From Amphirosellinia nigrospora (taxonomy: Eukaryota; Ascomycota; Sordariomycetes; Xylariales; Xylariaceae): a stretch of 64,000 bases of DNA. Shown here piece by piece: positions 3,055 to 21,995 of the stretch (positions are counted from its first letter, which is position 1; each line of letters starts with the position of its first letter). Below the pieces are notes generated by a model. It was not told where the DNA came from and made no database searches. It worked only from the letters and a program-made list of their open reading frames with translations. The position numbers were made by a program, and so were the translations under genes. The stretch spans positions 1,364,001 through 1,428,000 of the forward strand of contig SCHM01000002.1 of the NCBI GenBank assembly GCA_004123355.1, written 5' to 3'.

Positions 3055-5396
3055 TTATAAGGCGAGATCGTAATTATCATATAGATCGAAAAACCACAGG
3101 TCGTCGAGATGCCCCGCGGCCGGGTCGGTATTTACGTTTATGATTGATGATGTTGTTGAGATATCTGAAAATCGCTTCAGCGCCTTCGGGTGTAGCGGGG
3201 TTTTGAATCTGCTTAAAAGGCGATTGACCTCTGCATATGTCAATTGGGCATCCTTGTATCTATTTCGTATTTTCCTAAATTGGTCTGCTGAAGGTAAGCG
3301 ACTCTGACTAACTCCGGCGACAATTGCGGCACATACGTATAAGGAACCGGGGTACTGTCCACATGCTTGAAAATTGCTCTAGAAAGAGCAGCAGCAAGTC
3401 TTGACCTCGGTTAATGTTCGATATGAAGGGGCCTGCTGGGTCCGCAGTGCTCCGTCGATGTAGTTCTAAGAAGCAAAGTGCTGAGAATACAATAAAGCAC
3501 TATAACACTATAGGTTAGCGACAATTATTCGGTGATATGAGGACTCTGTAAGAACTCCAAAGGGGGGAGCAGCGTGTGCAACAGTATCTGATTATAAAAC
3601 AGCCACGTTCAACCCGGATTTTCCTGGAACCACTCACTATTGCAGGGTCAATTCTTGGGGAATGTTGATTATCCCAATGCTCGATTACTGAGACGATATT
3701 CTGGCACTGCTCGAGAGATTCAAGCCAACTCTGCATAAATCCAGCTTCATCCCCATCAAGTCTAGGGTTATGGCAATGATCAAAGTGGCCATGTGTATAT
3801 GAAGAATATTGGTGAGCCTTATATGATGCTCAATACACGACTCGCAACTTAATACATTTCTCGCTGGATTGAGATAACGTGAAGGGAGCGATAATCTTAA
3901 AGCATTGATGGCCCCCTTAAGAGCCGCAGTTTTTGTCTGTAATCGCTTCCCCTCGGTTCGCAGTCTCAAAACTATTAGAAACGAGAAATTAGTAAGTTTT
4001 TATAGCTATTATATTGCCTAGGGGCATATAGGAAGAACAGAAACCGAACAGCAGACTTCTCAATACGTACTATATCCAGCTCGTCGTAAAGTGGTCGTTG
4101 TGATCATATGTAGGTTGTAGTTAACCATAATTCCGTTCGAGACCACGGCTTTCGAGGTTTCCCATATGTCCTCGACGTCATCGGGTAAAAATACCTTAGG
4201 AATGGAGGTTGAAAGGCTATGGACTTGATCATGTGGCTTCCTTGCGAGTGCGGTATTGATGCTTTCGAGTTCTACCACAAAAGGGGTGCCAACAGTGATG
4301 TTAGAGTAGGAGTCTAGGCAATATATGCACCAGAAAAGGTAACGCCAATCCTCAATATCGTCTTCAGTCACAGCAGTGTAATCGAAGGCTGAACATAATT
4401 CCGGATTATCGATCTGATTCACTCCGACTGTATATGCCCTTCTGGCCAACCTGCTGATACGCATCCAAGAATTGGACCCAGGAGACTGATGAAACTCATA
4501 ATAGGCGAGCAGACACTCTAGTCTGAAAGAGTCTAGGCTATTTGGAGTATCTGAGGAGGCTGTTTCTGGTGACATGGTCTCAAGGAGAAACTGCATGCAT
4601 AATTCGATATCTTCAGGCTTCCAGAAGTTAATAGGACTTAATACTTTTGCAGTTACCGTGACAATGGTCACGAGTAGATTTCTATTAGCTAAACCATCGT
4701 CGTACTGCTGGAGGAAATGACCGATCCGGAAAAGGGGTATCGCAGAGTGAACCTGGTTGAAGAAGTGCATGAGACTTCAAATCCTGATTGTCAGTACAAT
4801 GTAACCATAACGTTGGTATCTATATATACCTACAGCTCCTTTTCATGCTCATGACTCAATAAGTAGCCTGGGTATAGCCCTATACTTCCACTTCCGCTAT
4901 CAGAGCGGACTCCCGGGTCTAGTAAGCCATATGTTGGATCCTGCAAACTGAATCCCCCAAATCCATGCACTTCTTCCTGGGGTAGGCAAAGGCCTTCGAC
5001 CATATCTGGGAACATGATGCCTGGTTCATGTGCGAGGGAGCGTTGGTCTGGTGTCAAGAAAACGTCCTCTTCGCGGGTGTAACTTGGGTCTCAATTGAAG
5101 CTGAGCTCGCCGAAGGAGTTCCATGTTTCTGACGGCGCGAGCCTCGCGGAGGGCCCGGCTTTTTACGCTCTGCCAAGTATGTGCATGGCGAGCCTGCTTC
5201 TATGCAACGGGAACAGCTGGGTCGTTGTAAGTCGCCTGGGAAGCGGTGAGCATAAGCATCTCACCATCACATAACTTTACTTACATTTCACCTTTTTACT
5301 ATAAGTTCTGTATTAGTCGGGCACTGTTCGAAGCATTTAACTGATCGCTCACCGGATACAGCGGTCACAGACACGGTTTCTTCCGCTCAATGACAT
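3055..5396 (-). CDS. Zn2Cys6 transcription factor with fungal-specific TF domain
   Basis: Pathway-type regulator. Spliced reading gives exons 5396-5353, 5298-5285, 5235-5134, 5089-4834, 4774-4071, 3971-3638, 3499-3337 and 3287-3055. The first three exons join into CDRCIRKKVKCDLQRPSC followed by SRCIEAGSPCTY, a complete Zn2Cys6 cluster with the usual basic linker (ERKKPGPPRGSRRQKHG). The fifth exon opens with LLMHFFNQVHSAIPLF, the start of the fungal-specific TF (MHR) domain; the tail holds DLLLLFLEQF and ends LYDNYDLAL. Introns are 44-138 nt, several with CTAAT/CTAAC branch sites. The 5133-5090 intron has a weak GTCAG donor and is the least sure. At 3765-3767 (GGG on the + strand) the frame slips; one more base in this run restores TPRLDGDEAGFMQSW. 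It sits tail-on to the dioxygenase at 5900 and is the natural candidate regulator of the aromatic cluster. Confidence 0.82.
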
Positions 5397-5628
5397 TGCT
5401 CATGAGGTACTCCCGATATTGATCCGCAACCAAAGTGTAGGGATGCGAGAAAAAGAAGCCATTAAGCCGATAATCATGCAGACGGCTAAACTTGCGAGCC
5501 CATTAATGCTGCGCCGATGAGATTGTGAGATGAGGAGGACAATACCTACTCCCCGCTGAGGGAAGTCAGGATACCTGAATCTCCCTAACTTAGATCATCT
5601 CCTACATTGTGGGGTAACCTACTACAAA

Positions 5629-5649
5629 GGTACCTAGGTACCTAGGTAC
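5629..5649. repeat. Palindromic TACCTAGG tandem repeat
   Basis: Tandem GGTACC/CCTAGG palindromes between the regulator and the dioxygenase. Related short runs occur near 52193 and 63779, and a variant lies at 17003-17016. Confidence 0.7.
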
Positions 5650-5899
5650 ATTCATATACACGGGGCCCGCGGTTATCCAGGTGATACTGTTTAATATAAT
5701 ATTTGCATTCTAGACGCATATAAATTCCCCATTAAAAAAATAGTCTCGTGTCAATCCATAAATACCTATACATCTTACATATAAAAACTTAGGACGGGAT
5801 CTCAGAAGCCCGACCACCTTGCAATGCACCCCAAATGACATGCCAAATACCTTATCGCACTGTCCATCGCATCTCATTTGGAAAACTGTAGAAAACACC

Positions 5900-7101
5900 T
5901 CAAGAGAAGCTATATTTCGTACTGTCATCGGCAAAGTCCTTTGGCAGTTCTGGACCCCAAACCGATAGAGGACCCACGACTTCGCGTGTCGTAGGAGTGT
6001 CTTCATTCACCAGATCTCCGTCGGCGTAGTGCTCGATCTTGAACCCACTCGGATCCTTCCAGTAGTCAAAGATTTGGCTGCCGAGGATGTGTCGCCCAAC
6101 ACCCCAAACACTTTCATAGCCTTTCTTAGCTAGGTACTCGTGGCCGATCAATTGTTCATCGAAGTCGGCGACCTCGTAGGATGTATGGTGTAAGTAACTC
6201 TTCTTGACTTCAGGTGGCGCTCGTTGCATGAAAAAACAATGGTGGTCGGAAAACTCCTTCCCTAGATCGAGGTGCATAAATGTGAGGACGTCAATGTTGG
6301 AGAAGTCCCAGTGAAACAAGACGTTTGATGGTACGAAGTTGAAGTTGCCTGTGTACCAGCTTATCTCGGTATCGAAATCTCGGTATACCAGTCCAAAGTG
6401 ACCGAGCTTGTGGACTAACGCGGCACCCTCACGATACCGTTGGAATGTGCCTGCGATTAATTAGCAAGTCCCTTCGATGTGGGAGGCGTATCGCCGCCTG
6501 ATATCAAGAGCTACCTTTCCTAAGCTTCTCAAAAGGACCATTGTAAGGTCCTTGTATCTCGTGGGTGGCTGATGGCGCCGTCTCCTCGATCTCTCTTTCG
6601 GCCTGGCCGTAGACGACATGAAATTGTGTATCGTCCGATCGATTGACTAGAACAATCGGTGTTATTTATTGCTTTTCTGGAGCGTTGTGTGTGGGGTTTT
6701 CGAAAATTTCACAATCCTAAAGACGAGAAGAACAATGACTCCCTGAATTCCTTACATGTGATCATTTTTCCGCCGCCAGGTGCATCTGCAAGGCTTGAGG
6801 GCGTGGCTCCTGGCAAAAGTACCGCTTTCTCAAACTCTTCCTCTGATTTTGCTACAAATGCAGCACCTCCAAATCTCGGGTTGCCATCTTTGCTCTTGGA
6901 AGCGACATAAACGTACGGATCCACGCCGTAACCTCGGAACCAAATCTTGTCCTCGTCTCGCTTTACTTCCACGAAACCCCAGTCTACCGCAAACTTAGAA
7001 AACACCTCTAGATCTGGATGCTCGAAGTAGACATGGGCAATGCGTGCGAGCTGGACTTTCGAGGAATCATTGGCGATCTCAGGGATACGCATGTCGGGCA
7101 T
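5900..7101 (-). CDS. Extradiol ring-cleavage dioxygenase (VOC / type I)
   Basis: Predicted Fe(II) enzyme that opens catecholic rings next to the two hydroxyls. Exons 7101-6756, 6646-6515 and 6450-5900 join in frame to 342 residues with no break. The two VOC halves are visible. The three metal ligands of type I extradiol dioxygenases fit KLGHFGLVYRDFD (His), SYLHHTSYEV (His) and FKIEHYADGD (Glu). The N-terminal half shows VQLARIAHVYFEHPDL. I chose the ATG at 7101; an in-frame ATG at 7161 would add 20 hydrophobic residues unlike the family. The gene is divergent from the monooxygenase with 413 bp between the start codons, so co-regulation is likely. Substrate cannot be read from sequence: catechol, substituted dihydroxybenzoate or dihydroxybiphenyl-type compounds are all possible. 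Confidence 0.85.
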
Positions 7102-7514
7102 GATGGTTTCGCGAATGAACCGTGGGAGTCTAGAAAGTGCTGACAATAAGAGAAGAGACATGATTGAAATTAATCAAGAAGAACTGTCTCGCGTCGATAT
7201 GACGCTTTTTCAACGCCAGTCCCTACTCGCATCGATGCAGCGCCGGCAAACACCTAATTTGTGGAGTTCCTCCGCGGAACAACTAAAGATTCAATCCGGG
7301 AAAACAGCACGACGCAAGCAATTGTCATCCATGAAACCAGACTTCGATTGCATATTGTGACTAGAATTATTGATTTAAAATTAATAGTAATCCTAATATA
7401 TAGGGTGGCTTAGGAAGCTTTAGTAACATACAAGTAGAGTTCGTCGCTGCCAAAATCTCCAGCTTCCTGTAGCCGGTACAGATTCTCATATATCGTTATT
7501 ATCAAGTTTGCTCT
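7102..7514. promoter_or_regulatory. Bidirectional promoter of dioxygenase and monooxygenase
   Basis: Non-coding gap between two divergent start codons. It contains GTTCC-TCCGC-GGAAC at 7266-7280, an inverted repeat around TCCGCGGA with CCG/CGG triplets that could bind a Zn2Cys6 dimer, and TGTAGCCGGTACA at 7468-7480. Binding is inferred only. Confidence 0.45.
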
Positions 7515-9614
7515 ATGGAGACTACAGAAGTCATCATTGTTGGTGCCGGTCCGGCTGGTCTCACCTTGGCTATCTGTCTATCAAAATTGAAAGTAAAGGT
7601 TAGCAAAATACCCAGTTACAGATGAGAGAAAGTATGCTCAGAATTTCCAGTCAATCATATTAGAAAAAGACCTTGAGATTGCCGAAGACCCCAGAGGAGT
7701 CGCCATCACTCATGATGCGGTCAGAATTTGTTGGGACCTTGGGCTCGGCGGGGATATGGACAAGATTGGCTATGGTAAAACTTACTACTGCGACATCAAT
7801 AGCGACAATTACTAACAATGGCATGTTCAGAATCACCTCATTTTAACTTCCATAAGACCTCGTTTTTGAATGCCCATTCTTCAAGGTCGACGGGGTTCCG
7901 GATGGTTTCAGTCAAGCGCTTCCAAGCGCTATCTTCCAGATCCAACCAATGTTAGGTGAGTCCAGTACAATAATCATCTGAGAATCATTCATATACTTAT
8001 AAAGTAGAGTCAACAATGCGTGATAAGTTGAAAGATTCACAGTATTGCGAACTCCGATGCGGCTGTACTGTGACGGGACGAAAGCAAAGTGGCACCGAGA
8101 TTACCGCTGAGTACACTGACGCTCAAGGACGGCGCAAAACTATACGAGGTTCCTGGCTTATAGGAGCAGATGGAAAGCGGGGAATAGTAAGAAAACACTT
8201 CCTCGAGCCGACAGCGGGAGTTCGACAAGTGGACAGCGCCTACAGATATGATGGAACCTGGGTAGCAGCAAACCTGGAAATATCTATACCGACTCCAGAC
8301 TCTCATCCTGATTTCCCCCTTTGGAAGCTAGGATATACCCCGACTGAAGTCTACGATCTATTTTGGCCTATTGGATGGCATTTCGGTAGTCCTCCCGGAA
8401 AGCCCCTTGCCGCTGGGCGTTTCGGGCCGTACGAGTCTCGTCTATGGCGTCATGAGTTCGCTCAGAATGACTGGAAAGACACCATGGATTCAGAAGAGCT
8501 CCTCTGGGAACACCTCACTCCAATGATCACTCGGAAGTGCGACGAGAGAGCTAGAGCGTTTCCTTCGGGTGAGGTGATATATCCCCGCGACTGTATTGAA
8601 ATTCGACGTTGCCGGCCGTTTCGCTTTACACATAAAGTGGTAAACAAATGGTTTGATGATAGAACGATCCTGATTGGAGATGCAGCACGTGAGTGGTCCC
8701 CTGAAAGCTCAAATACCTAGCCACCTGCAAAAGTTCAAAAACCCCTCTTAGATGCAAGTTAAATAGTATACTGACTATCAACCTTTAAAGATGTGTTTCC
8801 ACCATTCGGCGGGCAGGGAATAGCAAGTGGCCTAAGAGACGCACAACAGTTGGCCTGGCGCCTAATGCTGCTACAACGTTTACCTAATACCACCCGTTCT
8901 ATCTGCGACAAAATTCTCGAAGCTTGGGCGCAAGAACGTACTTACAGCGTAAGTCTTGCGGCGAGCCTCACAAAATTCAATGGCCAGTTGTGCAACTATG
9001 GAGACTCGTGGGGGTTCTGGTTCTTACGAAACTTGAATTGGGTTATGCGACAGATCCCGCTTCTTCCCCAACCCCCAGATCCATTCTCAGCAGCTGAAGC
9101 GCGCGGCTTCACGACGGTTGATAGAGGTTTCTTCTCGTCTGGACATGCGGGAGGAGGGAGACTCCCCCAGGTCTACTTGTCGTTGGATAATGCTGGCCCG
9201 ACGCTATCGGATTCAATCTTCAGACCAAAGGATGCAGCTATGACACTCCTAATAATAGCAGGAGGCGACCCTGGAGGCGATATTGCCGAGGCAAGAAGAG
9301 CTCTAGATGAAGCCAAAATCAACGAAGCCGTTCTCAGCTATGACTCGATCAAAGTCATCTGCTCGGAGCCGTACACCAGCGCTGGTAGTAACCTAGAGGT
9401 ATTCTACCCCACGCCGCTGGAGCGGCTGTCAGAGGCAGGCGTATCAATACGACCCTTGTACGCGCCCTCGAATCTATTCAGTCGCTTCAGCCCTTCTACG
9501 AAGTTCGTCATTCTCCGTGCGGACTTTTTCATGTTTGGCCTGGCGAAGGATTATTCGGAGTTGGTGGAATGTATTACCTACCTAAAGCTTCGTCTTCAGT
9601 GTGCAGTCTTATAG
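7515..9614 (+). CDS. FAD-dependent aromatic monooxygenase (phenol hydroxylase / MhpA type)
   Basis: Predicted to hydroxylate a phenolic ring using FAD and NAD(P)H. Exons: 7515-7598, 7651-7774, 7831-7955, 8008-8688, 8791-9614. Family landmarks in order: VIIVGAGPAGLTLAICLSKL (Rossmann GxGxxG), SWLIGADGKRGIVRK (DG motif), RTILIGDAAHVFPPFGGQG (GD motif, made by the last splice), then a C-terminal thioredoxin-like domain ending FVILRADFFMFGLA as in phenol hydroxylases. The length of about 610 residues suits the family. In the third exon the frame slips at CCC 7873-7875; one more C gives SFLNAPFFKVDGV and makes all exon phases agree. It starts head-to-head with the extradiol dioxygenase, which would use its catechol product. 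Confidence 0.88.
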
Positions 9615-10110
9615 TCACCTTTATTAAGGTAGATAGCCTATTTAATTTAATTAATTCTTTTTAAACAAAATTGACTCCCCCTCTTGATGCTGCTTTTTCT
9701 CTTCCTCGATTAAGTTATTGATGTCTTTATCATAGAACACATTTAACAATTAGAACTCTCTTAAAAGTCTTGCTATATGAGATGTAGATTTCAGTAGCCT
9801 AAAATATACCTACCTTAGAGACTATCAAACGACGCATAGTAGCACAAGACATATTTTTAAGAATAAGTTCGAGTTATACAATATAAATTAGAGCCACGTA
9901 GCATAGATTGAGTTCAAGGGAATTGTATCGAGAGCAGAAACATAGCCAGCTCCTCAATGATATTACCACCGTGTGGCGAAGGCTACAGCAAGTCTTTGGA
10001 CCTTTAGGTACAAGAAGGTCACCCAATCATTCCTTTTCCATTCTCCTTAGCAGATGACACCGCATGTGAGTGGGCATCCCACAGGACAAGATAACCAAAA
10101 AAACAAAGTC
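9615..10110. other. Convergent intergenic spacer
   Basis: AT-rich 3' region shared by the monooxygenase and the FAH-fold gene, which end facing each other. No gene seen. Confidence 0.6.
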
Positions 10111-11251
10111 TTACTCGAAAACAATCTTATTCTTGAGCTCGCCGATACCAGGGATCGAAACTTCGACGACATCGCCGTCGTTCAGGAACGTTCGCGGTTT
10201 CATGAACGCGCCAACGCCGGCCGGCGTCCCCGTCATGACGGCAGTGAAAGCCGGGATAGTGGTGCCTATACATCACGTCAGCGACTTTTCACTTCGTAAA
10301 AAATATTTTTTAAACAAAAATCACATACCTTGGCTCATGAAGCTTAGCACCTTCGCCGGCGCAAACACCATATCCTTCTCGAAATCCACGTCCTGCCTCG
10401 TCTCCCCGTTGACCTTGAGCGTCATGTGCTTCTCCAGGGTGGCGAACGCCTCTCGGCTGACCAGCGCCGGCCCGATGGGCGCGAAGTTGTCAAAGGCCTT
10501 GGCGTAGAAGTACTGCCCGCCGGCGTGGTCCGGCATCTGGAAGAGGCGGCAGGACAGGTCGTTGCCGATGGTATATCCCAGGATGGCGTCCGCGGCTTCG
10601 CTTTCCGTTACGTCTTTGCAGGCTCGCGATGTCACGAAGACGAGTTCGCCCTTTTTATTTATTTAGTGTAAGTCTTCTCCATGCCCGGAACTGCTGGAGT
10701 CAGGGGTGGTAAGGGGTCGAGAGAGAGAAGAGATGTGTACGTACCTCGTAGTCCGGAAAACTCGCGGCGCAGTACTTATTCATCACGATATCCTGACCGG
10801 GACTCGCCAGCGTCGCAGCCGGCTTTGTCCAAAGCGGCGGGGACTTGCTTACTTGAAGCTGGAGAACAAAATCATCGTGAGCGGTGGGTGGTCGATGTCT
10901 TCGGCTTATAGAGGGCCAAAGAACTTACGCTTGCTTCCTTCGCGTGACTTTGGTAGTTCAAGCCTACACAGTAGATGGGCAAGTCATCTCGGGGCAGAGG
11001 AGCGAGGAGCTACATAAAAGACTTCCGTCAGCTGTCTTATTCTTCATGCTAGAGTTAATAATGGTAGCTGTTCTTACCTCCTTTATTGCTACGCTCTCTG
11101 CATTAGACTTGGACAACAAGTCTTCAAACGACTTATACGCCGTGGTTTCCGATCCAGGTGCCGATGACGTCGAGTTAACCTCTCCTAGGTCGGCGTAGTA
11201 GGTCCCGCCATTTTGTGACTTGAAACGGATAACTTTCGTAAAGGCACTCAT
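10111..11251 (-). CDS. Fumarylacetoacetate hydrolase (FAH) family enzyme
   Basis: Predicted metal-dependent hydrolase, decarboxylase or hydratase of the FAH fold, acting on oxo-dienoic or fumaryl-oxo acids, i.e. ring-fission products. Exons 11251-11078, 11009-10929, 10858-10745, 10650-10329 and 10265-10111 join without break to 281 residues. Hallmarks: VGLNYQSHAKEA, the metal site with FPDYEGELVFV (ExE) and LGYTIGNDLSCR (Asp), and the C-terminal TAVMTGTPAGVGAFMKPRTF. In bacterial meta pathways such enzymes follow extradiol cleavage, which fits its place two genes from the dioxygenase. It could equally serve a gentisate/homogentisate-like route (fumarylpyruvate). Exact reaction unknown. Confidence 0.85.
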
Positions 11252-12620
11252 GGTGATACTTTTGAGCGGTGAGGGCGATGATCTACTGAGGTACGATGAA
11301 TAGAAAGTTGATTGCTAGCTGGATAGACAAGTAAGTAGATCGAGTGGTGTAGTCTCGAGAAGAATATCGTGACTACAGACCGGTTTCAAATGGGCCACCG
11401 GGATGGCCGGACACCCGCGAGATTGTCCGGCCGACGATCTGGGCCGGCGTAATGCATCATGCAAAGCACACAGGTTCTTCCATAGCTTGTTTACGTACCA
11501 TTAGCGTGTTACGATCGCTCATATTGATTCAAAACATCCCGATACACTGTATGGTCCGAAACCTTGAAAGATACATTCCCACGGGCGCCGGAGGATCTAC
11601 CAACGAAACCTCCGGAGAGACTCGCAGTCCACCTAGAGGATCCCCGCATTCCCAGCCCCACGGAGCAACCTCGCATGTGCTATGCTATGCTCTAGATCTA
11701 GAGATCATAGGCCTTGCGGGGACGGTTTTAGAATCCAGAGGATTTAAGCACATTCCCAGTTGCCAGTGAATAGCACTATAGAATATTAAACAAGTTTGCG
11801 CAAAGGAAGACGTGGGATTAGCTAAGCTCCCGCATAGGAACAGGACACCTTGAGGAACGTCGGACATTACTTAGACTTCCTAGTCTCGGCTTTGGACGAA
11901 TTAATTAGTTATCTTATTATCGTCTCTCTTCTCGGCTTACACCATCGTTCGCCGTGGGGAAGCGGGGAATGTCTACAAAAGCAATGAGCTCGCCCCATCA
12001 TCACGTTCGTGGACCTTGATCGAACATGTCGCCACTCGAACTATCTTGATTGACTAAATATATTTAATAGTCCCATTATACTCTTGAAGCTAGTCAAAAC
12101 AGTGATCCTCTTCTTTTTTTTTTTTTTGGCCTGCTGCATCTCATGTCACCCACTCGTCACTAAAACTGTTATCCCCAAATCCCCACCTGACTTCCGTGCC
12201 CTAGACTGATCTCCGATCGACCGTAGATCCTAGTTTGCCGATCATCGGGAATTATTTCTGCCGACTGAAACATACATATAGTTAAGCTGTTGTTTAATAT
12301 ACTATCCCTGAGCGTACTAAAACGGTGGTTTATCGTAATATTTTCAATCGGGTCGAGCAAGGTTACTCTGTGAGGCCATAAGGGTCGCAAAATATTATCA
12401 TCTTTTGTACGGTTTGACCAAAGAGTTTGACAACTACGATATCGCATTAGTACAAGAGAAAAAGCTTCTCACAACAAAGTTACCATTATCTAGAAACCTC
12501 GAGTGATGATGTACAGATTATTCATTCCGTGAAATTCATACAACCGTGATATCATATTCCAAAGTAATCCACACCGAAATCAGGTTTGCCCAATAATTGT
12601 TTTAACCATATAATCCCAAA
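11252..12620. other. Intergenic stretch with FAH promoter, no gene seen
   Basis: Upstream region of the FAH-fold gene and 3' flank of the aldehyde dehydrogenase. Apart from the inverted repeat at 11405-11432 I see no structure; a T12-like run lies near 12113. Confidence 0.5.
11405..11432. promoter_or_regulatory. Perfect inverted repeat, putative operator
   Basis: GGCCGGACA, 10-nt spacer, TGTCCGGCC: nine matched bases per arm, about 150 bp upstream of the FAH start codon. The arms carry inverted CGG/CCG triplets (CGG-N16-CCG), the kind of site bound by Zn2Cys6 dimers. A stem-loop in RNA is an alternative reading. Confidence 0.5.
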
Positions 12621-14347
12621 TTAGAAAATCGCGCCGCCCAGACGGATAGCAACCGACTTGTTTTGCGTGTAGTTAGCTAGCGCGGCCTCTCCTAGCTCGC
12701 GACCAATACCACTCTCCTTGAAACCGCCGAAGGGAACTTGGTGATGTATCAAGTTGTAGCCTTTTCAATTGTTAGTTCATAAGGAAAGACTAAGGATAAA
12801 GGGAGGATGAGGGGACGTACAGTTAACCCAAACGGTGCCTGCCTTGATTTTACTGCTTACACGGAGGGCCGTGTTTAGATCGTTTGTGTGGACAGCGGCG
12901 GCAAGACCGTAAGTACTGTCATTACCCAGCTTTATAACATCTGCCTCGTCTTTAAACTTGGCAATGGCACAAACGGGACCGAAAATTTCCTCTTGCATGA
13001 TCTTCATGTCAGAGGTAACATTGCTGAAAATGGTAGGCTTGATGAAGTAGCCCTTGTCACCATGGCGCTCGCCACCAGTCTCAACGGTAGCACCGCCCTT
13101 CTTTCCCTCTTCGATGTAACCCATAATACGGTCGAATTGGAGCTGACTAACTTGGGGGCCTTGGAAGGTCTTCTCGTCGAATGGGTCACCAACAGCATTC
13201 TCCTCCGCCCGCTTCTTGAATGCTGCGATAAACTTGTCGTAGATGCCCTCTTGGACGTAGATACGAGAGCCGGCGCAGCAGCACTGGCCGTGGTTATAGT
13301 AGATACCAAAGTTGACCCAAGAGATGGCCTGCTCGATATCTGCGTCGTTGAAAACGATGTTGGGAGACTTTCCACCAAGCTCTAATGTTACTTTCTTCAA
13401 GTTGGAGGAGGCAGCTGCCTTCATGATAGTACGGCCAACAAGGGTGGAACCAGTGAAGGCAATTTTGTCAACATCCATGTGGGAGGACAGAGCGGCACCG
13501 GCAACTCTGCCGAAGCCGGAGACGATGTTTAGGACACCGGCTGGGAAGCCGGCCTCCTTGACTAGGTTAGCGAAGACCAGAGCGGACAGAGGGGTCTGTT
13601 CGGCGGTCTTGAGGACGACGGTGTTACCCGTCGCAAGGGCGGGGCCGATCTTCCAGGCCAACATCAACAGAGGGAAGTTCCAGGGGATAATCTGCCCACA
13701 GACACCGAGCTTTATTGTCATGTTAAGTCTCTTAGCCTTGCAAGGTGTATAGCATAGAAAATATGCAGACTCACCGGTTCCGGTACGGTGTAATGGAAGG
13801 ACTCGTGGTCAACATCGACGGTGTTGCCGTGGATCTTGTCGGCCCAGCCACCGTAATATCGGATGCATCCAGCGACAGCGCCTACATCTCCACGAGCCAT
13901 GGTGATGGACTTGCCATTGTCTAGAGATTCGACAGCAGCGAGGAGGTCAACGTTCTTCTCGACGAGGTCGGCCAGATTCGTCATGTAGACACCTCGCTGT
14001 TGCGGTTTGGTTTCGCGCCATGTGGTCTCGAAAGCCTTGCGGGCGGCGGCTACTGCAATATCGATATCCTTTTCTGTGGCCTCGGAGACGGAGGTGATGA
14101 CTTCCTCAGTGGTGGGGTTGATGACCTCGAACGTCTTCTTGTCGACACCTTCTACCCACTCATTGTTGATGAAGCTGCGGGACGTAAATAAGCGTTAGTG
14201 GTAAGGATACCAGTCTACATGCAGCAAGAGAAAGATAATCTGTTGGGGTGTTGGAAGGTGTGGCTACAATAATTGGACTACTCACAGTCCAGTGGGTTGG
14301 GTATAGGTGCCGGTGATTGGCGTCTTCAGTTCAACGCTTAGAGGCAT
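12621..14347 (-). CDS. Aldehyde dehydrogenase (NAD(P)+), class 1/2 type
   Basis: Oxidises aldehydes to acids; probably cytosolic, since no targeting peptide is seen ([15 protein letters not shown] start). Exons 14347-14286, 14174-13775, 13709-12821 and 12760-12621 join cleanly to 496 residues, the normal family length. Motifs: [22 protein letters not shown] (NAD fold), [14 protein letters not shown] (general-base Glu), [15 protein letters not shown] (catalytic Cys in a three-Cys run as in other fungal ALDHs), EEIFGPV, and [15 protein letters not shown] near the C-terminus. Its GC content is higher than the flanks, suggesting high expression. It may be the general acetaldehyde/ALD gene that happens to lie here, or it may serve the neighbouring catabolic set by oxidising an aldehyde product. 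Confidence 0.93.
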
Positions 14348-16722: not shown

Positions 16723-17950
16723 TCACTGTTGATCTATAACCTGATCATAGAACCCCAACTTCCCGTTCTTATAAGCCGACATCGAATAAGCCAAGGCCAA
16801 ACTTTTCTTGTCTCCAAGACACCTCAAAAGTACATGGTCTTTGTGTTCCACTGATTCCACCATTTGCACATAGTCTTTTCGGTCTTTCCACCGCTGCCTG
16901 GCCTCGTCATCCACCGGCTGTCCGTCTTCGTCGTAATTATCAGGCGAACCGAATGAAACAGGCATAACTTGTAGGAACTCTGGGAACATAACAAGCTGCA
17001 AAGGTACCTAAGGTACATGCACCTTCCCAGTCAATAATACCAAGGACCTGAAACCTCTCATCGACAACTATGTTGCTATGGAAAAAGTCGGCGTGGCAAA
17101 GCGGAAATGGCCCATAATTGTGACACAACATCCGCTTAGCCATCGCCTTAATTTGGGATGGGAACTCGTTGATAGATGCCAGGACTCGTTGTGCCGGTCC
17201 TCCTTTCATCAGCTCTAGTATTCTGTCCTTTCCACGGGGAAACCTAGTGTGCTCCGCCCAAGCCTCGAAGAATGATGTCGCGGAGTCGAACGGCCCGCCA
17301 ATATCCGGGAAAGAGCCAATGTTATATTCGCCCTCTCCACTCCGAACAATGGTTCCGATCTTTGAGAAACGCAATGCAGTCATTTGTACCTATATTTAGA
17401 TTTGGCTGGAGTGTTTGATTGATAAGAGAGCTGACTGACATGACACTCGGCCACTGAGCGATAGAATGTTTGGCGGTAGGCGAAGGGAATCCGGCCTCTG
17501 TGCACATCATACCCGCCTGCGGCATCCATAGCGGTATTCCCAGGCAGGAACTCCAACAGGATTATCACCATCGACATCGTATGCGAATATATGCGGTACT
17601 GGAAGTTTACATTTTTCCTTAATTAACTGCATAACAGCAATTTCGTTGCGTAACTTTGCCGAGTCTGTAGCAGATCTATGCAAGCTGATCCTAGCAACCC
17701 ATCGAGTCTCATCTGAGAACTGGAGTATGCAAACAAGGATGTTTAATCCATTATTCATCTCGCTTGGTAGTATGCAAGGTAGCCCATGATTAAGGTCTGA
17801 GGCTCTTTGGCACAGGTTGACCCAATTTGTCTTCTGAATGGCTTCGCGGACAGAGTGAAGTGGATCATACTCGCTTATTTTCCAGTTGAGAAGATCTGTT
17901 AATGGCGATTGTGATGACATACCGACAGACCAGGTTGTTGTCATCATCAT
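16723..17950 (-). pseudogene. Aminoglycoside-phosphotransferase-like kinase, broken
   Basis: APH/choline-kinase-fold protein of the family expanded in fungi; substrate unknown. In order: start region from 17950, lysine-loop area with RWVARISLHR and NEIAVMQLIKEK, hinge LLEFLPGNTAMD, then (after an intron from GTCAGT to ATATAG near 17440-17390) the catalytic loop CHADFFHSN and the metal site LGIIDWEGA, with a C-terminal helical part ending GFYDQVIDQQ. There are two frame changes. One lies at about 17545-17560, where DGDNPVG and LEFLPGN are read in different frames and a few hinge residues are missing. The other lies at 17003-17016 on GGTACCTAAGGTAC, between WEGACT and PLQLVMFPEF. Neither is a simple C/G-run slip, so this may be a true pseudogene. 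Confidence 0.6.
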
Positions 17951-18887: not shown

Positions 18888-21800
18888 ATGGCTGATGTCG
18901 AAGCAGCCATCGCGGCTGCCATGAGCGCAGCGATGCCAAGCGCCCCACCAATGAGTGAGTACCACCACGCCGTCCTCGTTCCCGTCTCTCCCTCGTATGC
19001 TCGACGGATATCCGTAGCCCATGGCCTGTAGATGGCCCGGTCGGGGCGGGCGCGAAGGTGGCTCGCTGCCATGATCACAAAGTTCCATTCTGGGCTCTTC
19101 GCGTTCGAGTATCTGATACTATGGCATAGGCCCCGTCATCAAGGCTGAACCTCTGTCCGGGAATGCCGTCGACTACGAACCTACCATGCCGCCGCCGCCG
19201 CCAAAGTCGCCGCAATCTCCCCTTAAGCGATATCGCTCGCCGAGCGACGGCAACCCCGTCAATGGCGACGAGCACCGAAATGAGAAGCGGGTCAAGACGG
19301 AGCCCGCCCCCGAACCCGAAAATGACATGGACGAGATAGCACGAATGGTCCAGGCCGTACAGGCGTCTGTCATGAAGGATTTCCTTTCCGCGCCAGCTCC
19401 GAATATAGAACCCGAGCCTGAGCCCGAGCCTAAACCCGAGCCCGAACCCGAACCTACGCCCGCACCCGCACCTATACTCGAGTTAGGACTCACACCCGAG
19501 CCCACAACCCATCTAGGCCAGTCGGATGAGATCTTCGAGACGACGGAACACGAGCAGATTAACATCGAGTCAGCTCTGGAGGCTGCTTTGGATCAACAAC
19601 GTTCCCATCGGCAGAGATAGAACCGCGCCCGGACACACTGTGGAACAATCCACGAGATTATACACGCAGGAAACATATAATTCCGGCCCTCGGTGCCTTG
19701 GTCAGTGCTCATGGTCCTAGAATGATGCGAGAGGCATGGCTGACGTAGCGGCAAGGCTGTTGACATATTGATCGCCCTATCTGAGCAAACGCTGGAGGAT
19801 ACCGTGGCCACGTTGACCAGCGATTCCGACTCTGATATCGCTAAAGAATACAATGTGTTGCGAGGCGCATTCGACCTGCAGCGCAGGCAGTTATCCCATC
19901 CCCAAGCGTCCTCACGAATCCTCGACGCTGCAAAACTCGGTATTAGAGATCAGACAAGAGAGGTGATCCGGGTCACTAACCTTGCTTCAACATGTGCCAG
20001 CATATTTGGCACGAACGAAATAACTTTAGAGGAGGTGAACAACAACTTCTTAAACATATTCGTACCTGAGGGCCGAGGATTGTCCCATGACGCTGCAGAG
20101 CTATACTTAGGGTTGAAGACACAGCTTTTTTTAGCTGTTTTGGAAGGCGGTCTAGACAAACCCAAGGATCAGTACCTTGAAGAGCTTTTTGTGACAAATG
20201 TTGAACAGTCCTTGCAAGCTCATCATCCTTATAGCCCCTTGACGACCTCAGAACTCGACTTTGTTGCCAATTCGAAAGCGCGCAAGAGAATGCTTTTGAT
20301 CGCCTCCGCGCCTGCCGATAGTGTCTGTAAGTTCTTAAAATATTGTTGCCATCGTTTTCGTGGGTATTAACATTCGTACCAGATGTTCTAAGCAAGCAAT
20401 TCGCCTACGAAGCTTTCTTGGATACTCTTAGCACATATCTCAATGATCACATTGATAGTATCCAAGCCCAAGTGTCAAGCAAACTTGAAGCGAAGGCTCC
20501 TACTGAAAGCCCCGCCCCAGCCGATAGTAATATGCATGATCTGACGAGCGAGTTCGACTTGAACGCCATGATAGAGGAAGCTTCGCGGGCAGCAGCACAA
20601 GGTGCATTCCAACCCTCTACTAATGAACCACCCGCATTCGATGACCTATCCGCTTTCCTCTCAGAAAACGTGTCCAGAGCCGTTGAGCAATCACGGCAGG
20701 CAGCCCCCAATGCAGAGCTACCCTCCGCTATCGCTTCGGCAGCGGAGAGTGCATCAAGAGCTACAGCCTTAGCCCTAGAAAGCATAGCGAGGACGCAATA
20801 CCACCCAACAGCAATACCTCATACACCTAGTATGTTCATCATTCGGTGCGCCATGTAACAGGAGAACTAACGAATACCAGATCAAACCCAGTCTTCCACT
20901 AATCACCACAATTACCAGGCGCAACAGACACAGGCTCCCCATTATTCCCCTTATCAGCAGCAGCAAGGACCACAGCAGCCGGTAGCCAACATCCAGACGA
21001 ATTATCAAACGCCAAACGATCACTTGCCTCCAAATCAGAGCGACTCGACGCCCGCCCTCTATGAGCGGGCTCGACAAGCAGCCGCGGCACGATCCTCGAC
21101 CCACGCCCGGCGCGAAGGCTCTCATTCGACTCGGCGGCCGTGGAGCCCTGAAGAAGAAAAGGCGTTGATGATGGGGCTTGATATGGTGAAGGGTCCTCAT
21201 TGGTCACAGATTTTATCACTCTTTGGTCCCAATGGCTCAATTAGCCAGATACTTGCGGATCGGACACAAGTTCAGTTAAAAGACAAGGCTCGTAATCTGA
21301 AGCTTTTTTTCCTGAAGACTAACTCCGAGATGCCATACTACCTGCAATGTGTTACGGGAGAATTGAAGACTCGAGCACCTACTCAGGCCGCCAGGAAAGA
21401 GGCAGAAGAGAAGGCAAGGATGAATTCCGAAGAGCACCAGGCACATATGAATGGAATCCTAGCATTGGCTAGTGGCCTTCAAAATAACCCAGCCCAGAGG
21501 TCCAGTCCTTCTGGAGCTATTACCAGCAGCACCACAACTCATCAACAACATCCGCATCCTCATTCACATCACCAAAATACGCCAGCCGTCTCACGACAGC
21601 CATCACAACCCATGGTTTCGGCCCAACCATCCCGCCCAGTCATACCGGCACCTCAGCCAGTTAGTTTACCTACCTTGACACCCACCAACCAACAACAGCA
21701 TATACAACAGCCTCTAGCACAACAATCGACACCACGACAAGATAACCCTCCATCATTACAAGCACCACCCAAACTACAAGTACCAAACACGCAGCAACAA

Positions 21801-21995
21801 GCCACGACAACGCCAGAAACAGCGACAATGCCAGATCATAGCAGCTTGAGCATCGAGGATCAGGCGCTTCTCAGTCTCAAGGCCGCCATGGAAGGCATGG
21901 AAGGCGATTCTGCACCGCCGGCGGCACCGCAATCAACAAGTACCGTTGTCAAACAAGAAGAGCATGCTGGACACAACGATACGCCGATGACATAA
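18888..21995 (+). CDS. TBF1: TBF1/TRF-like telobox Myb protein
   Basis: Nuclear DNA-binding protein expected to bind TTAGGG-type repeats at telomeres and some promoters. Exons: 18888-18954, 19130-20326, 20383-20829, 20881-21995. N-terminus: [12 protein letters not shown], basic patch KRYRSP...NEKRVKTE (possible NLS), then a Glu-Pro repeat around 19410-19480. Next comes an alpha-helical TRF-homology (dimerisation) region from [19 protein letters not shown] to [12 protein letters not shown] Gln-rich linker leads to a single C-terminal Myb repeat, [17 protein letters not shown], ending in the telobox-like [16 protein letters not shown]; a Q/P-rich tail follows. The second exon has three frame slips within 170 bp: CCC at 19604-19606, near 19741 and near 19765. 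Each is cured by one base, so the gene is probably intact in the organism. Confidence 0.82.
19415..19484 (+). repeat. Glu-Pro coding microsatellite
   Basis: Imperfect hexamer repeat (GAGCCC/GAACCT types) encoding alternating Pro and Glu with some Lys, Thr and Ala, inside the TBF1-like gene. Confidence 0.8.

Follow-up and report, generated by a model that had tools for sequence, protein, structure and literature searches.

In Pseudomonas mandelii 7HK4, the degradation of 7-hydroxycoumarin involves the genes hcdABC. A class A flavin hydroxylase forms a trihydroxyphenyl compound, the ring of which is opened by a type I extradiol dioxygenase to give a colourless meta-cleavage product; it has been proposed that an FAA-family hydrolase splits this product (PMC6222606). 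The same three enzyme families are encoded side by side in a stretch of 64,000 nucleotides (hereafter the window; C4:1364001-1428000, contig SCHM01000002.1) from the ascomycete Amphirosellinia nigrospora, whose genome assembly comprises 48.1 Mb in 11 contigs. There, genes for a VOC-type extradiol dioxygenase, a flavin monooxygenase and an FAH-family hydrolase form a real and coherent group at window positions 5900-11251, and we put the probability at roughly 70% that this group serves the fungus in catabolism, as a module that opens an aromatic compound by extradiol (meta) cleavage. Of the characterised systems with this enzyme set, hcdABC comes nearest, likened by description and not by sequence; it differs in being a bacterial operon, for which the substrate has been shown to be 3-(2,4-dihydroxyphenyl)propionate (PMC6222606). 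Such a module is new for fungi as far as was searched, whilst the chemistry itself is known from bacteria: full-text literature searching, with most subscription papers outside its reach, found no paper on a fungal catabolic cluster of VOC, flavin monooxygenase (FMO) and FAH genes, and nothing useful on orcinol, trihydroxytoluene or olivetol. The route, in which a ring is hydroxylated, cut in bacterial style and its product hydrolysed, has hardly been studied in fungi, and a compact VOC cluster makes extradiol cleavage in fungi directly testable.

Related systems in bacteria and fungi

Bacterial FMO-VOC-FAH operons carry the same families in tandem, for example on a Burkholderia multivorans plasmid (NZ_CP020399; locus L048) and on Sphingopyxis pRW412a (L054), to which the fungal VOC protein is 35% and 33% identical, respectively. 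They differ in having TetR-type regulator genes and, in L048, additional acyl-CoA synthetase and OmpW genes; the L048 monooxygenase (H32) is approximately 25% identical to the fungal one. The ipp cluster of Rhodococcus sp. D-6 likewise encodes a monooxygenase, an extradiol dioxygenase with an HHE motif and an FAHD2-like protein, alongside an acetoacetyl-CoA synthetase-like gene, but its monooxygenase is a two-component enzyme and its dioxygenase is a short protein of 211 aa that acts on 2-isopropylhydroquinone (PMC12442392).

An earlier note on this DNA, made from the sequence alone, had compared the genes with the bacterial mhp and hpc (hpa) pathways, known from Escherichia coli. The logic of the steps is indeed shared (hydroxylation, extradiol cleavage and hydrolysis, with an MhpA-like monooxygenase and an HpaG-like FAH fold), but the match is incomplete: the VOC protein scores 43.7 bits against the NCBIfam equivalog cut-off of 321.4 for HpaD (homoprotocatechuate 2,3-dioxygenase), and the FAH protein 112.9 bits against the cut-off of 276.4 for the HpaG C-terminal domain. 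The mhp pathway has a LigB-type dioxygenase, MhpB, and an alpha/beta hydrolase, MhpC.

Fungal meta-cleavage is called uncharacterised in the part of the literature that was accessible, and extradiol enzymes are considered less common in fungi (PMC12388069). Intradiol cleavage alone has been described, and intermediates found in Aspergillus flavus hint at an extradiol gallate dioxygenase (PMC10512348). Deletion of 17 putative ring-cleavage genes in A. niger left growth on gallic acid unaffected; these genes were picked by PF00775, PF02900 and PF04444 (PMC10512348), and VOC enzymes, which belong to PF00903, fall outside that choice. In A. nidulans, a DUF3500 protein has been proposed to open the ring of gallic acid (PMC12388069), which speaks against a VOC enzyme for this substrate. 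A putative extradiol dioxygenase of Dichomitus squalens was found to be up on most aromatics tested (PMC6763618), and the fungal degradative gene-cluster classes of Gluck-Thaler and Slot use 13 core genes, e.g. PMO and ARD (PMC10735191). An ascomycete extradiol dioxygenase, CDO3 of E. polonica, is cited as having ring-cleaving activity in vitro, but it is of the class III LigB type and not a VOC enzyme, and the available part of the paper does not describe an FMO-FAH cluster (PMC8896014).

Gene models

Four gene models, for the VOC, flavin monooxygenase, FAH-family and aldehyde dehydrogenase proteins, were spliced by hand. All 13 introns are of the GT..AG kind, with lengths of 52-111 nt, and each of the four frames is open. 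The features are as follows.

3055..5396, minus strand: Zn2Cys6 regulator gene, with Zn_clus at the 5' end and Fungal_trans in 4060-4770; frame apparently interrupted
5900..7101, minus strand: VOC (type I) extradiol dioxygenase gene; 3 exons (7101-6756, 6646-6515, 6450-5900), 342 aa
7102..7514: divergent intergenic region of 413 bp, from the gene models a putative bidirectional promoter of the dioxygenase and monooxygenase genes
7515..9614, plus strand: class A flavin monooxygenase gene, MhpA-like; 5 exons (7515-7598, 7651-7774, 7857-7955, 8008-8688, 8791-9614), 603 aa
10111..11251, minus strand: FAH-superfamily hydrolase gene; 5 exons (11251-11078, 11009-10929, 10858-10745, 10650-10329, 10265-10111), 281 aa
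12621..14347, minus strand: aldehyde dehydrogenase gene; exons 14347-14286, 14174-13775, 13709-12821 and 12760-12621, 496 aa

The predicted adjacency of a VOC gene, a head-to-head FAD monooxygenase gene and a gene of the FAH fold is borne out by these models and by Pfam, with E-values of 6e-07 (Glyoxalase, VOC protein), 1.6e-38 (FAD_binding_3), 2.1e-59 (FAA_hydrolase, PF01557) and 9.9e-185 (Aldedh). The start codons chosen for the two head-to-head genes are 413 bp apart; if the VOC gene began at the in-frame ATG that lies further out, at 7161, the gap would be 353 bp. The cluster had been proposed to comprise five genes, of which these three stand, the regulator is present with a frame that appears interrupted, and the aldehyde dehydrogenase falls away (see below).

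The three enzymes

The metal-binding triad of the dioxygenase, H177, H248 and E299 (2-His-1-Glu), is invariant in 10/10 and 38/38 alignment rows. Absence of this site had been named as one ground on which the proposal would fail, and a structure-based check had been suggested alongside it; fold comparison found that the protein has the catalytic C-terminal VOC domain fold of the extradiol type. A homogentisate or gentisate route was rejected, as the dioxygenase is extradiol-like in both sequence and fold. Identity to the nine bacterial proteins in the ten-row alignment is 29-36%, and this, together with the introns and a fungal clade in the tree described below, led to rejection of a recent transfer from bacteria, in agreement with what had been argued from the introns at the outset.

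The best curated family for the monooxygenase is the 3-(3-hydroxyphenyl)propionate/3-hydroxycinnamate hydroxylase group (8.8e-49, under the family's cut-off). For MhpA proper (PRK06183) it scores 166.6 bits, short of the cut-off of 390, and judged by its sequence it is a distant relative of MhpA rather than a member of MhpA proper. Along with FAD_binding_3, it contains GAGPAG at residue 10, GADGKRG at 155 and GDAAH at 326, which we take to be the GxGxxG, DG and GD motifs of class A flavin monooxygenases. It had been labelled a phenol-hydroxylase-type enzyme; this label and a phenol hydroxylase of the Trichosporon type were both rejected, because the C-terminal domain of such enzymes (PF07976, presumably their dimerisation domain) is not among the families matched at E<=0.001.

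For the FAH protein, the closest curated families, neither of whose cut-offs it reaches, are 2,4-didehydro-3-deoxy-L-rhamnonate hydrolase (6.3e-39) and, next, the HpaG C-terminal domain (1.6e-32). Among solved structures, 6iym ranks first (3.5e-37), and the acylpyruvase FAHD1 is one of the matches. The motifs HAKE (residue 80), DYEGE (121) and GNDL (152) presumably represent the HxxE and acidic metal-site motifs of FAH hydrolases, enzymes that act on 2,4-dioxo acids.

Paralogues and linkage in the fungal genome

Two further members of the VOC family are found in this genome, on C1 (37-53% identity over exon matches) and C6 (37-61%). The C1 copy is preceded by a gene with a Fungal_trans domain and ends 0.5 kb ahead of another FAH gene (match C1:4725804-4726546). 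An FAH gene thus lies within 3.1 kb of two of the three VOC paralogues, whilst six FAH loci were seen in 48.1 Mb. Counting FAH genes within 5 kb, the rough chance of such linkage is about 5 in a million, a figure that treats the loci as independent and that joint duplication would break. VOC-FAH linkage in this genome exceeds chance.

The C6 paralogue (C6:5179676-5186570; L045:3676 to L046:566) has as neighbours a Zn2Cys6 gene and open frames that encode shikimate-kinase, dehydroquinase and shikimate-dehydrogenase domains, an arrangement that recalls activator-repressor modules of the QutR/TanX type. We take the three shikimate-pathway domains to be the make-up of QutR-type repressors. In A. 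niger, the use of gallic acid is controlled by the activator-repressor pair TanR/TanX (PMC10512348). The genome also matches LigB in two places and intradiol dioxygenases in seven exon matches, six of them over cut-off.

A further VOC locus, L057 (NYXK01000232.1), is filed under a Deltaproteobacteria metagenome-assembled genome (MAG). Its VOC match is split by two intron-like stretches with stops, and an open reading frame (ORF) of 599 aa with Zn_clus and Fungal_trans lies 2.6 kb before it. Because of the intron-like breaks and the Zn2Cys6 gene, L057 is likely to be fungal, a contamination in a public assembly. Near the VOC match, a fragment of an acetoacetate-CoA ligase (4.2e-35) was recognised, along with two genes for flavin monooxygenases (FAD_binding_3, 9.2e-06 and 4.5e-25). 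In a tree of 90 VOC rows, L057 and the three paralogues form one clade (100/100), which is grouped with eight Pseudomonas/Azoarcus rows (95/77; unrooted, with long-branch warnings). We lean, if by a narrow measure, to the view that ascomycetes have a VOC-type extradiol family running genuine meta-cleavage pathways, with a regulator of its own for each paralogue, and that it has been overlooked because surveys of ring cleavage sought the intradiol and LigB families.

Bacterial relatives

Searching plasmids with tblastn, the VOC protein was matched in 133 records (30 listed) and the monooxygenase in 261 (20 listed); seven of the 20 listed monooxygenase rows had a listed VOC match within 5 kb in the same record. 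Nine VOC neighbourhoods, chosen among rows with annotation, were opened: all nine contain an FAH-family gene and four an MhpA-like or FAD monooxygenase, whilst among the others L050 has molybdopterin hydroxylase genes and L051 a gene of the 4-hydroxyphenylacetate 3-hydroxylase type.

In a profile scan of genome contigs, the best 80 of 555 VOC relatives were kept, and 79 bacterial ones remained once the fungal-looking L057 was excluded from the linkage counts (counted earlier, it had given a monooxygenase match and no FAH). By tblastn, the flanks of 66/79 hold an FAH match, within 500 bp in 57 cases; an MhpA-like monooxygenase is near 38 (within 500 bp in 18), and 35 have both partners. The background, 66 FAH matches in 36.0 Mb of six genomes that carry the VOC gene, predicts about 2.3 matches in the 1.235 Mb of flanks, and is a Pfam count set beside a tblastn one.

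In Pseudomonas sp. ERMR1:02, one ORF (L058:1483-4239; 919 aa) encodes a VOC extradiol dioxygenase domain fused to a class A flavin monooxygenase.

Several observations weigh against reading the fungal genes as one module. At the C1 locus, nothing in the 29 kb read matches the monooxygenase; around the C6 paralogue, neither an FAH gene (20 kb read) nor an MhpA-like one is matched; and in L057 the window monooxygenase matches over 40 residues only (45%, E 3e-5) and an FAH match is absent from the 37 kb read, both FAH matches of that MAG lying on other contigs. The regulators look different at each of the four fungal loci. Amongst the bacterial loci, the VOC gene of H37 is 267 kb from the monooxygenase, neither partner is found at 10/79 loci (several with short flanks), and three monooxygenase neighbourhoods gave one without a VOC or FAH gene (H40), one without annotation (H34) and one in which two small VOC genes accompany an FAH gene (H39). 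The bacterial sample is also biased, as FAH genes had already been found next to the bacterial VOC proteins that made up 9/10 rows of the scan alignment, and the fungal monooxygenase, at 23-27% identity to the bacterial matches listed, need not share their substrate. A comparison of promoters, that of the aldehyde dehydrogenase included and with no control, gave no clear common motif, only words of 9-11 bases. In no splice model tried is the Zn2Cys6 exon continuous with the Fungal_trans region and the C-terminal part, and the window proteins profiled, which represent part of the frames, include no aromatic transporter.

The gaps at C6 and the differing regulators, together with the fact that each of the three genes comes from a large superfamily, would fit chance neighbours that serve different processes. 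This is very improbable given that an FAH gene accompanies two of three VOC loci in this genome and most of the bacterial relatives.

Proposed pathway

That the genes follow a meta-cleavage logic, as first suggested, is supported by the intact triad and extradiol fold, by VOC-FAH linkage at a second locus and in bacteria, and by the hcdABC precedent. We infer the reactions, their order, the metal and co-regulation as follows. The flavin monooxygenase would hydroxylate a phenolic substrate to a catechol or trihydroxybenzene. The VOC dioxygenase, which probably uses Fe(II), would then open the ring beside the diol, and the FAH-family hydrolase would cleave the 2,4-dioxo (acylpyruvate-like) chain so formed to give small acids, with the Zn2Cys6 gene as candidate regulator. 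By analogy, the substrate is likely to be of the resorcinol or hydroxyphenylpropanoid type, because FAH-type 2,4-dioxo acid chemistry fits a ring with a third hydroxyl, although nothing here fixes it. As the hcd product is colourless, an assay for yellow colour could give a false negative.

The hydrolase, a step past ring opening, bears on whether the route serves nutrition or detoxification. A toxic plant or microbial phenolic might be destroyed and the product not used as carbon, which is one of two scenarios considered for a fungal extradiol enzyme (PMC8896014), and the proteins profiled revealed no additional catabolic gene next to the cluster. The presence of that additional step, and a VOC-FAH linkage that is strong in bacterial loci and recurs in this genome, make detoxification unlikely.

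Some bacterial relatives adjoin acyl-CoA synthetase, OmpW or porin genes (L048, L049, L052, L055, L056), and L059 has an aromatic-acid transporter nearby. This setting speaks against tailoring in secondary metabolism, i.e. a role in opening or contracting the ring of a polyketide or quinone, as does the lack of any polyketide synthase or nonribosomal peptide synthetase among the window proteins profiled, which also included no transporter; the longest stop-to-stop stretch of the window (678 aa) is a MINDY deubiquitinase. Precedents for such tailoring do exist in fungi: AlfB, which acts in allantofuranone biosynthesis and is classed among the extradiol dioxygenases (PMC12105029), and TerI, a predicted glyoxalase/dioxygenase of the terrein cluster, which also contains FAD monooxygenases and a Zn2Cys6 gene (PMC12848540), but for this locus the explanation is improbable, and catabolic meta-cleavage is preferred.

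Regulator, aldehyde dehydrogenase and other genes of the window

The regulator gene, downstream of the dioxygenase gene, has matches to Zn_clus (1.5e-11) and Fungal_trans (8.5e-11), and its extent to 3055 was read by eye from the frames. The break in its frame appears to be of a single base, in an otherwise conserved gene. The likewise conserved C1 and C6 VOC paralogues show one apparent single-base frame break each (L043 ~3190; L045 ~9550), both of which fall, by eye, at short G runs and may be consensus errors in the assembly. Because both paralogues have such breaks, an assembly error is plausible for the regulator as well, error and mutation being indistinguishable here.

The aldehyde dehydrogenase gene sits 1.4 kb beyond the FAH gene. 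Its family is large (41 exon matches across the genome, counting its own), and it has no match at the paralogous VOC loci or at L057; on these grounds it was rejected as a core member, and it is probably a gene of general function that does not belong to the cluster.

Ten more window frames were profiled and gave, besides the MINDY deubiquitinase, a steroid-dehydrogenase-type protein, a GH5 cellulase and the following. At the left edge, positions 1-833 contain the last part of a gene for a group 1 glycosyltransferase (PF00534, 1.9e-09 and 2.7e-07; ALG2-like by eye only), and 16940-17383 encode a phosphotransferase domain of the APH type (PF01636, 2.5e-07). The frames at 19744-21992 carry a TRF (telomere-repeat-binding-factor) domain (7.9e-32) as well as a Myb domain (1.4e-05) and probably belong to one gene for a telomere-binding protein.

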